Positions 21,609-30,519 of a stretch of DNA of 64,000 bases are shown in pieces. Position 1 is the stretch's first letter. Every line of letters begins with the position of its first letter. The translations under genes and the position numbers were made by a program. This DNA is from Asterionellopsis glacialis (taxonomy: Eukaryota; Bacillariophyta; Plagiogrammaphyceae; Rhaphoneidales; Asterionellopsidaceae), in the NCBI GenBank assembly GCA_014885115.2, contig WKLE02001195.1, positions 27,070-91,069 of the forward strand. The letters are read 5' to 3'. The notes beneath the pieces were generated by a model, which did no database searches, was not told the DNA's origin, and worked only from the letters and a program-made list of their open reading frames with translations.

Positions 21609-22514
21609 TCATTCCTTTCTTCGAGAAACATGCCATATTTCAATATCATCTACCGAAAATACAGGATCGTGTTGGTTTTGAGGGATGACATCAACTTGTA
21701 AGTTTCGTAACGCAGCTAACTCTTTGAATCGTTCTTTTGGGTTGAACTCTGGAAAGTATCGGTGCTCATAACTGATAATAGCTATTCCGTTATCGGAAAG
21801 TAATTCATCGATACCGTCTACCAACGGTCCAATAGGATAAAGTTTGGGAAGGACACAATCTGACACTAACACTATATCAAAAAGTCTTTTCCCTAATGAT
21901 CCATCACCCCACCAATAGTATTGTACATCAATCTCACAATTCCCTATCTTGGTCTTGCTACTTGATGACGGTTGTGTTTCCGTTGTTTGAGACGGAATTT
22001 GAGATTGCAATTTCTCCTGAGCATGTGCAATATTTTCTTGCGCAAGTTGAACAACTTTTGAACATCCATCTGTGCATATGCAGTGTGACGCTCCCAATAA
22101 AGCCGCGCCAATTGTTGTAATCCCTGTACCTGCACCAAGATCAACTAGTTTGATTTGGTTTTCCGTCCCTTGCCCTTGTAAAAATAAGGTTGGGTGACGT
22201 TCTAAATATTTCAATAATACCATTGATGCAGGCCAAACTGTGGCACCAGTGCCATAAGTTCCTTCGATTTCTCCACGTTGGACTTGCTTTACAGAGAATG
22301 AACAATGACGCATGTCGTCCTTAGTTTGACCCGATAATTTCATCGTCACTGGATATTGTTCAGCCTGTGAGTAGCGATTTCTCCAACCAGCAACAACTGC
22401 ATTCTTATTCAATTTCATCCTCGATGAAGAACCATTATCTAGAGCATCAAACAAAGCGCGAGCCGTAGGGTGTGGTTGAGCACGTGGATTCACTTGAGAT
22501 TGGGACGGTTCCAT
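21609..22514 (-). CDS. METTL21-like (methyltransferase 16 family) protein methyltransferase
   Basis: Single exon, 301 residues. A class I SAM-binding fold: GATVWPASMVLLKYL, then VDLGAGTGITTIGAALLGA (motif I, 124-131) and CTDG (acidic end of strand 2). FDIVLVSDCVLPKLY gives strand 4 and a DxxY-like catalytic-site motif, and IISYEHR matches the strand 5 to 6 region. This is the layout of the lysine methyltransferase family 16 (METTL21/METTL22 group), which trimethylate chaperones, eEF1A and similar cytosolic proteins. The target cannot be told here. The start at 22514 is the only ATG before the SAM domain with room for the N-terminal helix. It is divergent from the bestrophin gene. Confidence 0.8.
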   Translation of the reverse strand: MEPSQSQVNPRAQPHPTARALFDALDNGSSSRMKLNKNAVVAGWRNRYSQAEQYPVTMKLSGQTKDDMRHCSFSVKQVQRGEIEGTYGTGATVWPASMVLLKYLERHPTLFLQGQGTENQIKLVDLGAGTGITTIGAALLGASHCICTDGCSKVVQLAQENIAHAQEKLQSQIPSQTTETQPSSSSKTKIGNCEIDVQYYWWGDGSLGKRLFDIVLVSDCVLPKLYPIGPLVDGIDELLSDNGIAIISYEHRYFPEFNPKERFKELAALRNLQVDVIPQNQHDPVFSVDDIEIWHVSRRKE

Positions 22515-24942: not shown

Positions 24943-25878
24943 TTAATCAAATACTTTTCCAATCTTTTTGAACAATTTATTGAAATTGAAATCATCATCA
25001 ATAGACATATCAACATTACCAGAACCATCAGCCTTGAATGTGTAGGGTAAATCTAAAATCGTACCTGAATGACAACAATCCATCAAACATGTCAAGGTAA
25101 CACCCTCTTTCATGGGGTGTACCAATGTATCGAACAAATCATCATCGCGTATAATACCAGCAGTTTTATAATCTACAGGTATTAAAGTTTCATCTTTACC
25201 ATCTTCTTCCTCGCCATAATCATCATCACGTGTGGATCCACCATGTCCAGAATAATGACAAAAGACAGAATCACCTGCCTCCGATTCGTCCACTAATTTA
25301 CGATAGGCATTTAAAATATTTTCCTTGGTGGGCGGGTCATGTTCACCATCGTCCAAGAGTAAAGTAATATTTTCCTCTTCAAATCCGTGTACATCCATAA
25401 TGTATTCTTTCATATTTAAGGCATCATTGTGACAACCACTCAATACACCTGAATCATGTCCAACATAATTAATACCAATTAATAAGGCACGGCGTTTATC
25501 CGTGGCATCTTCTTTTTGAGATACTAAATGGAATGGTAATTCCATATCCATTAATCGACTAGAAGATAATTGGGGAATTTGTGTATACTCCCCCTCGGAT
25601 AAGATTTCTCTCATTTTGTCCAAGACTTCCACAAATGTTAAATCATCATCCAACTTTTTATGATCCGCATACAATACCTTGAGTAAGGCGGATGTGCATG
25701 CACCACCAGACCGTCCAGCTGGATCTGGCAACCCAAATGATTGAACATTCCATACATCTGCGGAAGTTTGAGAATCTTGACATCCAGAGATCATCCGCAC
25801 ATCCGCCGGTAACACAGCTGACTGTTGTTCGTCAAACTTTTCTTCAATTCTCTTTTTCATACGACTAAGGAAACCCAT
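24943..25878 (-). CDS. Type III metacaspase (p10 before p20)
   Basis: Single exon, 311 residues. Residues 26-115 are a p10-like domain (RMISGCQDSQTSADV, GRSGGACTSALLKVL), the part that normally follows p20. Residues 128-285 are p20: RRALLIGINYVG, then catalytic H212 in HYSGHGG and catalytic C269 in DCCHSGT. The swapped order defines type III metacaspases, known from algae with secondary plastids. They are calcium-dependent cysteine proteases cutting after Arg or Lys and are linked in diatoms to stress and programmed cell death. There is an acidic loop (YGEEEDGKDE) after the catalytic His. No signal peptide; the N-terminus is a short amphipathic basic helix. Cys268 next to the nucleophile could take part in redox control, as reported for a diatom homologue; here that is inference. 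Confidence 0.92.
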   Translation of the reverse strand: MGFLSRMKKRIEEKFDEQQSAVLPADVRMISGCQDSQTSADVWNVQSFGLPDPAGRSGGACTSALLKVLYADHKKLDDDLTFVEVLDKMREILSEGEYTQIPQLSSSRLMDMELPFHLVSQKEDATDKRRALLIGINYVGHDSGVLSGCHNDALNMKEYIMDVHGFEEENITLLLDDGEHDPPTKENILNAYRKLVDESEAGDSVFCHYSGHGGSTRDDDYGEEEDGKDETLIPVDYKTAGIIRDDDLFDTLVHPMKEGVTLTCLMDCCHSGTILDLPYTFKADGSGNVDMSIDDDFNFNKLFKKIGKVFD

Positions 25879-26614: not shown

Positions 26615-27793
26615 ATGATGAAAAGTAGTATGACATGTTTAGGAAGTAACAATTTAAGATTAGCAATACTTCGAGGCAGAGTTACATCTTTAGCAGCAAC
26701 GCCTCGTATCATTGATATAGCAACAAGGCATACCTCATATCCTACTACTTGCATTCGTCATTTTCATTCGCCCTACCATGTTCCTGACACCGGGAATAAC
26801 AAAAGGTTGTTTACAACAACAATATCAACAAAACAATCTATACCCGGAAAAGATCCATTATCACTCTTACAACAAGATGCTATAACACGTAAATTATGTA
26901 ATGATGATGGATATCGTCTCCCAGATGTACATTGGGTATTTTCCATAGCAATCAATGGCCATACTAATGACGACGCACAACAAGAAGAACCACCTAATCT
27001 TCGTACAGTTGGATTCCAACGTGTGACAAGTAATGGAATTGATTTTGTGATGAAACGTGGTGGACCCCTAGTAGAACAACTACTTCTTGGCGAAAACCAA
27101 AAGCCCTTGTCTATGCTATATATGCAAGGTAAATATAAACCAGGTGAAATTGTAACGCAGTGGCGTGGTGAAGGCAAATGTGAATCGTTACCATTGGAGG
27201 ATGAAATCATTACAAAAATTCCAATCTATACCATGACTGGTATGGTAGCTACCAAACGAACGGAAAAAGAACATCTAGATGATGGTTCTACTATTGCAGA
27301 CCACGAAACAGATGTAAGTTATTATTCCTTTCTTTACTTTACAAATATGTATGTGTGAATGCCTTCATTTGGTACCAAATATTATAAAAATCTCACGATA
27401 TTGTTTCCCCCTTTTTTTTGGCACCACCGACTGTACACACTCTTCCAACTACCTTACTCACAACTATCTCCACCATTGTCACCTACGACGACGACGATGA
27501 CGACATTTACAACCAACAAATGGAAATTATGGTATACATAGTCATATCGAATCATGATGGAACGCAAAACACATTTTACTCAAGTAACACAACAAACGCG
27601 TATGGAAATTGAAAATAACACAATATCATTTGATGAATTAAATGAATCCATTCAAGTATTAAGATTTCGTCCTACACGGATGGAATTGATGGAAGGTGGT
27701 CCATCAGAAATTTTATGGAATAGATGGGAATGGTTGTTACATTCTCAAGATGGTAATGATTGGAAGGATCCAAAACAACTTTTACCACATTAG
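26615..27793 (+). CDS. PNPOx-like (pyridoxamine-phosphate-oxidase fold) flavoprotein, two exons
   Basis: Exons 26615-27313 and 27542-27793 join in phase 0 across a GT-AG intron, giving 316 residues. The N-terminal 70 residues are rich in Arg, Ser and Thr with few acidic residues and look like a mitochondrial presequence. The core matches the split-barrel FMN-binding fold: NLRTVGFQRVTSNGIDFVMK, then PLSMLYMQGKYKPGEIVTQW and RGEGKCESL. The second exon gives LRFRPTRMELMEGGPSEILW and WNRWEWLLHS, corresponding to the C-terminal PxRxEfxxGxxxRlhdR...W region of pyridoxamine 5'-phosphate oxidase. The substrate-binding Arg/His of true PNPO (RLHDR) is replaced by EILWNR, so a related FMN protein rather than the vitamin B6 enzyme is possible. 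Confidence 0.65.
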
Positions 27794-28008: not shown

Positions 28009-30519
28009 TCAAGGTGAAATGGCAATTGTGACCACACAATCGCTTGTGCTTCCCTTCCTATCTTGTGATTTGCCTTTATTACCATCATGGTTTGCTGTCT
28101 TCTTTCTCTTGTTCTTTTTGGCACCACGTGGAAGACGGAAATTGCGTTGTGGTATATGCGCTTGACCCTTCACAATGAAACCAAAGTGTTTCAAATCTTC
28201 TTCTACTTGTTGAGCTGATTTACTTACAAAAGCACATGGTGTTCCCGAAGAAAGGCATTTGGAAAGTCTCCATAAAATTTGTTTATTCTCTTCATGATAA
28301 CTAATTGTATTTTGACCCCAAGGTAAATTTGCTACCATGCAATCATAGCCACGTTGTGACTGTTGTTGCTGTTGCATTTCTTCTTGTCGTTGAAGACTTT
28401 GAGTAGCATCACATAGTTCAACCTTCCATGGTTTATGACAAGGGATATCGTTAGTTTCTATAAGTGCGTACTCCAAGTTGCGTTTTGTCCCAGCAACACA
28501 AAGTGGATTGATATCCCAACCTTCTGCCTGTATACCTTTTAATACTGCCAAGGCTAAGAATGTACCACTACCACATGTAGGATCAAGTAACGTAATTGTA
28601 TCCTTCCCATCGTCAACATGACCATCTTTGGTAGCATTATCAAGTAACAATAATGCTTGTTGCCGTTTCCGTTGCACCATATCAATCAGCAAATCAACTA
28701 CAATCTCCGCAATAGCAGGGTTGATTGCTGAACTGTATTGAAATGGTCGTTTTGCCCATACTTTGGCAAAATTATTGTTGTTGCTACTATCGTTGCTTTC
28801 GTAAGTTTGTAAAATACCGCTGCTCAAAAACGTCTTGTCCCCTTCCTTTCTTGTTTGTGAAGACAATGGAGAATGATCAATTTTTCGTACCAAAAATATA
28901 CCATGATCTGTTGAACCAGTATCAATAATCATCAAGATTTCGGATGCTAATTTTGGATTTAAAGCTGCTGGAGTTGGAAGCTGTTGGGATATGCAACACA
29001 TGAGAGATTTTGATGTGTAGTGGTGAGAAGAAGATCCTTCTTGAACGTTTTTCGAAGAAGCAGGGCTAGAATCCTTATTTTGCATTCGAATATAATCTAA
29101 AACCCAACCACCTGTGGAATGTGGAGGATGGTTCTTCTCAGTAGCATGCATTTTGAGTGGATTTGAGTTTTGTTTCTTTGTGTTGGTGTTGATAGTGACA
29201 TGATAATGTTGAATAGAATTATTTGTTTGTCCACCAGATTCATAATGAAAGTATCCATCAAAATAAGTTGTATCATGATTTGTCAATATATGGGTAAGCC
29301 ATATAGAATTATCAATAAACATTTCATCTAAAGGTATATCATACCAATTCTGAAACCAAACAGGCGTTATGTCATTATCACAAGAACTTTTCACAAGTTC
29401 ATGAATGTTTGGATCAATTTCAATCGATGACATGGACGATGATGAGCAAGTTTTTGCTTTTTCGGAGGTAGCAGTAGTGGTGGTTGGAGTTGTTCTTGTT
29501 GTTATAACATCGATACGAAAAACATGCATGAGCATAATTTCATGGTTGACATCATCATCAAATGTAAAGCTCAATTTCCCAATTTTATGCTTTGCCATGG
29601 TAGAGGAGGGTATTTTAATTCCTGCTTCTTCTTGCAGCTCTCGTGAAGCACATTCAGCATCCGATTCTACATGTACTACTTGGTTACCACTATCATCACT
29701 AGATTGATTATTGTTCTTTCCTGCAACGGATGTGTAAAACCCTTTTCCAAATCCACGATTTTTCATTCCCAATAATATCGGTCTTTGATTCTCCGTATTA
29801 CTGAGGTCTGCAACTACGACAAGTGAAAACTCTTTCATACCATCCTTCTTCTTCTTGGATGTTCGTTGTTGATATGGAACAGCTGACATGAAAGATTCCA
29901 AAGATTCGTGACATTTACCAAGTCTGGATGGTTCTATCCGCGTATTTTTAGTGAAGTAGGAATTTGATGTTCTAATATCCTCCATGGTTAGACTACTGCG
30001 CGATTGTCTCGTCGTTCTTGATGCTTCTAAAGCATTACTTTGTTTTTTGCTGTTTGCCATGTTTTGTATAAGATCTATGGGTGTTGCCCCATGTGCTATT
30101 ACTTGAGCAATCCATTCACAACGTTGACTTGCAGAAGATGGTGCTACTTTGGATGATGATGATTCTGTATTTGTATAATGATTGTTTATTGGATTGTTAT
30201 CAAATTGTAATAACATAGATCCAGTCGTAGCATCCATAAGTAGACGCTGACAGTCACCATGTTGAAATTTCATTTCAAGATATTGTAAATCGGCAAGTTT
30301 AAATGTTTCTGTTGTTTTAGCCAACCACGATGTCGATGGTGGTGGTCCGGTATTGCTATTGCCACCCTTACCATCATGATAATTGATGTTTGTCAAAGAA
30401 AAACCGCAAGTCTCATTTCCTTTGTTAGATAATAGAACCACCAATGCAACAATCAAGATAATAAGACTATTATTACCATATTGGGAGTACACAAATAATA
30501 ATGATATCAAACAAAACAT
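28009..30519 (-). CDS. MTH1-like Nudix hydrolase fused to a Trm11/RlmKL-type methyltransferase
   Basis: Single exon, 836 residues. Residues 17-31 form a hydrophobic segment near the N-terminus, possibly a signal anchor or organelle leader. Residues 230-440 are a Nudix domain closest in pattern to MTH1/NUDT1: FSLVVVADL, box residues RELQEEAGI (293-301), KIGKLSFTF, LMHVFRI, then PVWFQNWYDIPLDEMF and FDGYFHYE as in human MTH1's WF...IP...W and GYF. MTH1 removes 8-oxo-dGTP from nucleotide pools. The usual box glycine region before the glutamates is altered. Residues 585-836 are a class I methyltransferase: AINPAIAEIVVDLL, LDPTCGSGTFLALAVLKG (motif I 646-653), GWDINPLC, and VANLPWG (731-735) in place of NPPY, as in Trm11/THUMP-type RNA guanine or adenine methyltransferases. 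The combination is unusual. No intron supports a genuine fusion. Confidence 0.82.
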   Translation of the reverse strand: MFCLISLLFVYSQYGNNSLIILIVALVVLLSNKGNETCGFSLTNINYHDGKGGNSNTGPPPSTSWLAKTTETFKLADLQYLEMKFQHGDCQRLLMDATTGSMLLQFDNNPINNHYTNTESSSSKVAPSSASQRCEWIAQVIAHGATPIDLIQNMANSKKQSNALEASRTTRQSRSSLTMEDIRTSNSYFTKNTRIEPSRLGKCHESLESFMSAVPYQQRTSKKKKDGMKEFSLVVVADLSNTENQRPILLGMKNRGFGKGFYTSVAGKNNNQSSDDSGNQVVHVESDAECASRELQEEAGIKIPSSTMAKHKIGKLSFTFDDDVNHEIMLMHVFRIDVITTRTTPTTTTATSEKAKTCSSSSMSSIEIDPNIHELVKSSCDNDITPVWFQNWYDIPLDEMFIDNSIWLTHILTNHDTTYFDGYFHYESGGQTNNSIQHYHVTINTNTKKQNSNPLKMHATEKNHPPHSTGGWVLDYIRMQNKDSSPASSKNVQEGSSSHHYTSKSLMCCISQQLPTPAALNPKLASEILMIIDTGSTDHGIFLVRKIDHSPLSSQTRKEGDKTFLSSGILQTYESNDSSNNNNFAKVWAKRPFQYSSAINPAIAEIVVDLLIDMVQRKRQQALLLLDNATKDGHVDDGKDTITLLDPTCGSGTFLALAVLKGIQAEGWDINPLCVAGTKRNLEYALIETNDIPCHKPWKVELCDATQSLQRQEEMQQQQQSQRGYDCMVANLPWGQNTISYHEENKQILWRLSKCLSSGTPCAFVSKSAQQVEEDLKHFGFIVKGQAHIPQRNFRLPRGAKKNKRKKTANHDGNKGKSQDRKGSTSDCVVTIAISP

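Follow-up and report, generated by a model that had tools for sequence, protein, structure and literature searches.

An MTH1-type Nudix domain nested in the open reading frame of a Trm11-like methyltransferase of the diatom Asterionellopsis glacialis

The 64,000-nucleotide stretch of the Asterionellopsis glacialis genome analyzed here (contig WKLE02001195.1 of assembly GCA_014885115.2, positions 27,070 to 91,069; hereafter, the window) carries on its minus strand, at 28009-30519, an open reading frame (ORF) that runs from ATG to stop through 836 amino acids (aa) with zero internal stops and joins a Nudix hydrolase domain to a class I methyltransferase domain. All the motifs quoted in an earlier note on this DNA lie in this one frame, namely RELQEEAGI (residues 293-301), PVWFQNW (from residue 386) and FDGYFHYE (420-427) of the Nudix part, and DPTCGSGT and NLPWG of the methyltransferase part (Table 1). 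The proposal of that note, that an MTH1-pattern Nudix domain and a Trm11-type methyltransferase share an uninterrupted frame, is borne out by the ORF, by these motifs and by the Pfam, PDB and fold matches described below. A codon score, with 13 other window ORFs of at least 300 aa as its training set, ranks this frame above the other two in 27 of the 28 30-codon blocks, the exception being codons 571-600, and is weak in several blocks, including linker 2. Given the frequency of stop triplets in the window (0.049), the 315 open codons of the insert would be expected by chance with p ~1e-7, so the frame of the insert is not a chance one.

The methyltransferase part is marked as class I by a Pfam match to UPF0020 (residues 639-757, 24.5 bits against a cut-off of 22.3), by DPTCGSGT and by NLPWG, a motif IV of the (N/D)xP(Y/F/W)G type. 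A fold match to archaeal Trm11 (PDB 5e71) spans residues 64-835 of the structure model, which is poor across the insert, where zero relatives are aligned (predicted local distance difference test score ~25-40). The protein does not qualify as the position 10 enzyme Trm11: the curated Trm11 model TIGR01177 scores 38.9 bits, far below its cut-off of 316.55, and NLPWG stands in place of DPPYG. Since a separate Trm11-looking gene with DPPYGIRES is encoded in the same genome (locus L017), the window gene is not Trm11 proper but a Trm11-like paralogue, and its assignment as a Trm11 orthologue was rejected. The L017 gene (contig C464) extends over two ORFs and is probably split by an intron with the donor CAG/GTAAGG.

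A database search with the whole protein as query retrieved 39 relatives, 38 of which match the window protein, by local BLAST, at two places flanking the insert. The N-terminal matches start at residues 23-68 and end at 82-194 (most commonly, 64-66 to 154), and the C-terminal ones start at 443-586 (most commonly, ~470) and end at 745-836; in none of these 38 methyltransferases does local BLAST match the Nudix block. The single remaining relative, P0036, matches just residues 199-453. When the window protein is aligned with 34 of the 38 relatives (P0014, P0026, P0033 and P0034 excluded), 317 of its residues lie between positions 154 and 472, where the relatives have 9-38, and the window protein is the only one of the 35 aligned rows in which a Pfam search detects NUDIX. 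The suggestion in the earlier note that the Nudix module is inserted into a longer RNA methyltransferase is upheld by these matches and spacings, whereas the separate N-terminal domain proposed there for residues 65-215 stands for about 64-154 only, the part from ~190-199 onward being the own lead-in of the Nudix family. An end-to-end fusion was rejected because the matches of the relatives lie on either side of the insert. No direct repeats of note, as a trace of insertion, were found at the insert borders.

The named methyltransferase relatives are all from diatoms (Cylindrotheca closterium, Nitzschia inconspicua and Attheya sp.); most of the others are nameless. A hydrophobic leader stretch is present in 31 of the 39 members of this family that were scanned, the window protein (P0001) included, as judged from hydropathy (Kyte-Doolittle 1.9 over 12 residues, a threshold of our choice). 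Such a leader would fit import into the secretory pathway or an organelle, in keeping with the organelle location that had been considered possible for this protein.

The Nudix part is recognizably of the MTH1 type. It matches MTH1 in the PDB by sequence (E-value 2.9e-8, residues 246-340 and 382-428), and a profile of this part and its relatives matches PDB MTH1 chains with an E-value of 6e-27. The best 50 Foldseek matches listed are all MTH1 chains (E-values 2.6e-13 to 1.5e-10, target-normalised template modelling score 0.74-0.86), with a Nudix fold indicated by a probability of 1.00 to MTH1. Compared with the Nudix box consensus G-x5-E-x7-R-E-U-x-E-E-x-G-U, the segment E-x7-REL-Q-EE-A-G-I is present and the G-x5-E spacing is longer by 10-12 residues.

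The likely source of this domain is a family of MTH1-type Nudix proteins with a Methyltransf_32 domain behind the Nudix domain. With the Nudix region as query and full-length limits imposed, the database search yielded 14 proteins; a query made of the Nudix part and the start of the following domain yielded 20, including all 14. Methyltransf_32 follows the Nudix domain in all 14, in several of them below the curated cut-off; among the additional proteins, P0054-P0057 and P0059 end just past the first Methyltransf_32 motif, an intron being a possible cause, and P0058 ends earlier. The family as a whole (P0036 and P0041-P0059), the one named member of which is from a diatom, usually has a hydrophobic C-terminal tail (13 of the 14 Nudix-Methyltransf_32 proteins, again by a threshold of our choice). 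The segment shared with the window protein begins ahead of the Nudix fold, with the lead-in RLG..HESLESF, so most of the donor N-terminal half seems to have been moved. Given that the donor family is C-tailed and the recipient family is leader-bearing, the Nudix domain may have changed compartment.

The nested domain departs from MTH1 at several positions, base-recognition ones among them. In MTH1 numbering, an alignment with hMTH1 shows that Lys23, Phe27, Arg51, Glu52, Leu53, Glu55, Glu56, Phe72, Asp119 and Trp123 are kept, and Glu43 is replaced by Asp. Four replacements, Asn33 to Thr, Gly36 to Ala, Glu100 to Asp and Asp120 to Asn, are each found in 0 of the 20 relatives; Trp117 is replaced by Phe, likewise in 19 of the 20. 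The base-recognition trio Asn33/Asp119/Asp120 is therefore Thr/Asp/Asn in the window domain versus Asn/Asp/Asp in 20 of 20 relatives. The Nudix tree gives the window domain an end branch of 1.3, compared with at most 0.76 in the 20 relatives. The link to oxidised-nucleotide clearance drawn in the earlier note, via an 8-oxo-dGTPase activity, is doubtful because the MTH1 base-recognition positions are altered here and in none of the 20 relatives.

Table 1. Features of the nested Nudix-methyltransferase gene (positions in the window)
Feature	Positions	Strand	Basis
Whole ORF, 836 aa and stop	28009..30519	-	Frame, codon score
N-terminal leader, residues 1-63, hydrophobic stretch, possible signal or transit peptide	30331..30519	-	12-residue Kyte-Doolittle maximum 3.91
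Ferredoxin-like N-terminal domain of the methyltransferase, residues 64-146, putative limits	30082..30330	-	Relatives, model secondary structure, archaeal Trm11 fold alignment from 64
Start of THUMP-like region, residues 147-160, separated from the remainder by the insert	30040..30081	-	Model helix from 147; most matches of relatives stop near 154
Linker 1, residues 161-190, Ser/Thr/Arg-rich, without clear counterpart in relatives	29950..30039	-	Alignments
Inserted MTH1-type Nudix domain, residues 191-456, including the donor-family lead-in RLG..HESLESF	29152..29949	-	Sequence and fold matches
Nudix box, residues 267-301, REL-x-EE retained, preceding loop longer by 10-12 residues	29617..29721	-	Alignments
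Linker 2, residues 457-470	29110..29151	-	Alignment of relatives
Remainder of THUMP-like region, residues 471-546, begins GWVLDY	28882..29109	-	Relatives mostly match from ~470; model strand, helix, two strands
Class I methyltransferase domain, residues 578-836, with RPFQYSSAIN	28012..28788	-	UPF0020, TIGR01177 (below cut-off), 5e71 fold match
S-adenosylmethionine motif I DPTCGSGT, residues 646-653	28561..28584	-	Alignment
Motif IV NLPWG, residues 731-735	28315..28329	-	Alignment with Trm14 (NLPYG) and archaeal Trm11 (DPPYG)

The assembly (40.3 Mb, 1503 contigs) has a single place for the window protein, with one gene for the methyltransferase part and one MTH1-type Nudix gene; no second copy of either was found at E-values up to 0.001, and none of the 22 NUDIX places in the genome is matched by hMTH1 or P0042 at that limit. 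The Methyltransf_32 halves of the donor family are 52-67% identical to that of P0042 among five sequences, and searches for this half in the genome gave weak matches only (E-values 0.067 with P0042, 0.016 with P0047 and 1.2e-4 at 29% identity with P0053, the last on contig C744). The C744 locus, L028, is matched at 25% identity (E-value 7e-10) by tblastn against a tiny database of 33 loci; its ORF encodes another PF13679 protein lacking the AGGHG, ACHAC and CCQKD motifs, none of which was found in a motif scan of the 33 loci. It was rejected as the other half of the donor, given the absence of the family motifs, and is read as a paralogue, with a very diverged partner being possible. Either the other half of the donor gene has disappeared, or it has diverged too far, or the assembly does not contain it.

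Other ORFs of the window include, on the minus strand, one of 311 aa at 24943-25878, in which a Peptidase_C14 (caspase) domain is strongly matched, and one of 301 aa at 21609-22514, which contains a Methyltransf_16 (lysine methyltransferase) domain. On the plus strand, a 247-aa ORF (26615-27358) with no Pfam match at 0.001 and, seemingly, a further exon near 27550-27790 encodes what we take, by eye, to resemble a pyridoxamine-phosphate-oxidase-like protein.

The sequence itself shows the uninterrupted frame with its two domains, the site of insertion, the family of the donor and the altered residues. We consider it likely that the gene is a domain transplant, in which an MTH1-type Nudix domain is set in frame within a Trm11-like RNA methyltransferase. 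Under this scenario, the N-terminal Nudix half of a Nudix-Methyltransf_32 protein, of a family with diatom named members, would have been carried in frame into one of the loops of the THUMP-like region belonging to a leader-bearing, archaeal-Trm11-like RNA methyltransferase, this being the presumed direction of transfer. The 836-aa product would consist of the leader, the ferredoxin-like domain, a split THUMP-like region with the nested Nudix domain, and the methyltransferase. By analogy with its family, the methyltransferase most likely retains N2 methylation of a tRNA guanosine, with a tRNA as the putative substrate, and the protein would be imported into an organelle. The nested Nudix domain most likely folds. 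Nucleotide binding or cleavage may have survived in it, though with an altered preference for the base, so that it would not be a standard 8-oxo-dGTPase. The methyltransferase function is the safer half of this assignment; an 8-oxo-dGTPase function is unlikely. According to a report on archaeal Trm11 (PMC9957541), the region that corresponds by fold to the insertion site captures the tRNA CCA end, so the insert is either tolerated or alters the contact between enzyme and tRNA. As a long shot, we also consider that a modified nucleotide, 2-oxo-dATP-like or other, is sensed or hydrolysed by a Nudix domain with a re-tuned base pocket, which would thereby gate the tRNA methyltransferase from within the THUMP region; if true, tRNA modification would be tied to an organelle's pool of oxidised nucleotides.

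The architecture is unusual and so far found in one genome; in agreement with the earlier note, no described protein with both an MTH1-type Nudix domain and a Trm11-type methyltransferase was found in open-licence PubMed Central, judged by titles and the starts of abstracts. An entire catalytic domain appears, rather clearly, to have been transferred to the interior of an enzyme unrelated to its source protein, and the recipient family can be seen as well as that of the donor. Changes equivalent to D120N and N33T, which occur here naturally, lead to a sharp prediction on the specificity of MTH1-type enzymes.

Several observations weigh against the transplant as described. The joined order was found in no database relative, the outcome that the earlier note had set as refuting its reading, although no close relative of the species is known to be sampled there. 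The Pfam match of the Nudix part (residues 285-345, 19.1 bits) is slightly below the cut-off of 21.1, and genome-wide Pfam scans at E-values up to 0.001, with 22 places for NUDIX and five for UPF0020, include the 836-aa gene in neither list; therefore, both domains are diverged. The altered base-recognition positions of MTH1 belong here as well. In the Nudix tree, the window domain joins at a fork with 83/89 support, which does not resolve the donor. No THUMP family appears among the best 25 of 30 families at E-values up to 10, so that the putative assignment of the split region as THUMP draws on the fold match of the model. Translation as a single chain is likewise a prediction, and the borders of the insert contain a phase-compatible splice pair, considered below.

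The first alternative, a special case of the transplant rather than an exclusive rival, is that the Nudix domain is a degenerate passenger that folds and neither binds nor cleaves, leaving the methyltransferase as the sole function. We regard this as a real if less probable option: the alterations at the positions of Asn33, Gly36, Glu100 and Asp120 and the longer Nudix-box loop, seen in none of the 20 relatives, and the long end branch all speak for it, whereas the retention of Arg51, Glu52, Glu55, Glu56, Phe27, Phe72, Asp119 and Trp123 and a frame open across the whole Nudix block speak against it.

It is rather unlikely that the Nudix block is an intron-like segment, the splicing of which would yield a normal methyltransferase of ~527 aa, the long frame being an unspliced or minor form. 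A donor at residue 160 (AAA/GTAATG) and an acceptor at residue 469 (CCACAG/G) share phase, and their joining would remove 927 nucleotides (309 codons) and leave an 8-residue loop, compared with 9-38 in the 34 relatives. However, no donor fits the strong pattern that was used; the residue-160 donor is weak, without the G at +5 of the likely real L017 donor (picked by eye), and the residue-469 acceptor is fair. Codon shuffles of the two border regions give as many or more phase-compatible pairs in 457 of 2000 cases, and because shuffles so often do so, the presence of the pair is no evidence for splicing. An independent nested gene would be expected to have its own stop and would need no open frame into the host; the 46 open linker codons taken separately have p ~0.1. 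One chain is favored because the frame is open through both linkers and no stop follows the Nudix domain.

A bifunctional enzyme, with a working 8-oxo-dGTPase and an RNA methyltransferase in an organelle, is improbable. The MTH1 fold, the catalytic box and the hydrophobic leader are all present, and no other MTH1-type gene was found in the assembly at E-values up to 0.001. However, as given in PMC5314174, the D120N variant of hMTH1 has 4% of the 8-oxo-dGTPase efficiency left, along with 85% of that of 2-oxo-dATPase, and Asn33 touches the 8-oxoguanine base; the equivalents here are Asn and Thr. An assembly artefact joining pieces of two genes is scarcely credible: the locus is known from one assembly and the other half of the donor was not found, but the Nudix domain lies inside the methyltransferase, the pieces of which are in the expected order, and both junctions are in frame and open, which would be rare for a chance misjoin.

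The window protein can be compared with several known systems. Archaeal Trm11 (tRNA m2G10/m2,2G10 methyltransferase; PDB 5e71, 6zxv) shares the fold of the whole methyltransferase part, and its order of ferredoxin-like domain, THUMP, linker and Rossmann methyltransferase, given in PMC9957541, is probably shared as well; the identity in the fold alignment is 16-19%, and the window protein differs in having NLPWG rather than DPPYG, a leader and the nested Nudix domain. Trm14/TrmN (tRNA m2G6 methyltransferase; PDB 3tm5, 3tlj, 3tma) probably resembles the window protein in domain order, going by PMC9957541, and its NLPYG aligns with NLPWG. The leader-bearing Trm11-like methyltransferases (P0002-P0035 and P0037-P0040) correspond to the whole methyltransferase part, and none of these 38 matches the Nudix block. 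MTH1 (NUDT1), an 8-oxo-dGTPase, shares the fold, the REL-x-EE box and the Lys23, Phe27, Phe72, Asp119 and Trp123 positions, whereas the window domain has altered Asn33, Gly36, Glu100, Trp117 and Asp120 positions and a longer loop and resides within a larger protein. The Nudix-Methyltransf_32 proteins (P0036 and P0041-P0053; one named, from Cylindrotheca fusiformis) are 37-42% identical in the Nudix half and share the RLG..HESLESF lead-in; unlike the window protein, they have a different methyltransferase partner and, in 13 of 14 by the threshold used, a hydrophobic C-terminal tail, and keep the Asn33, Glu100 and Asp120 positions.
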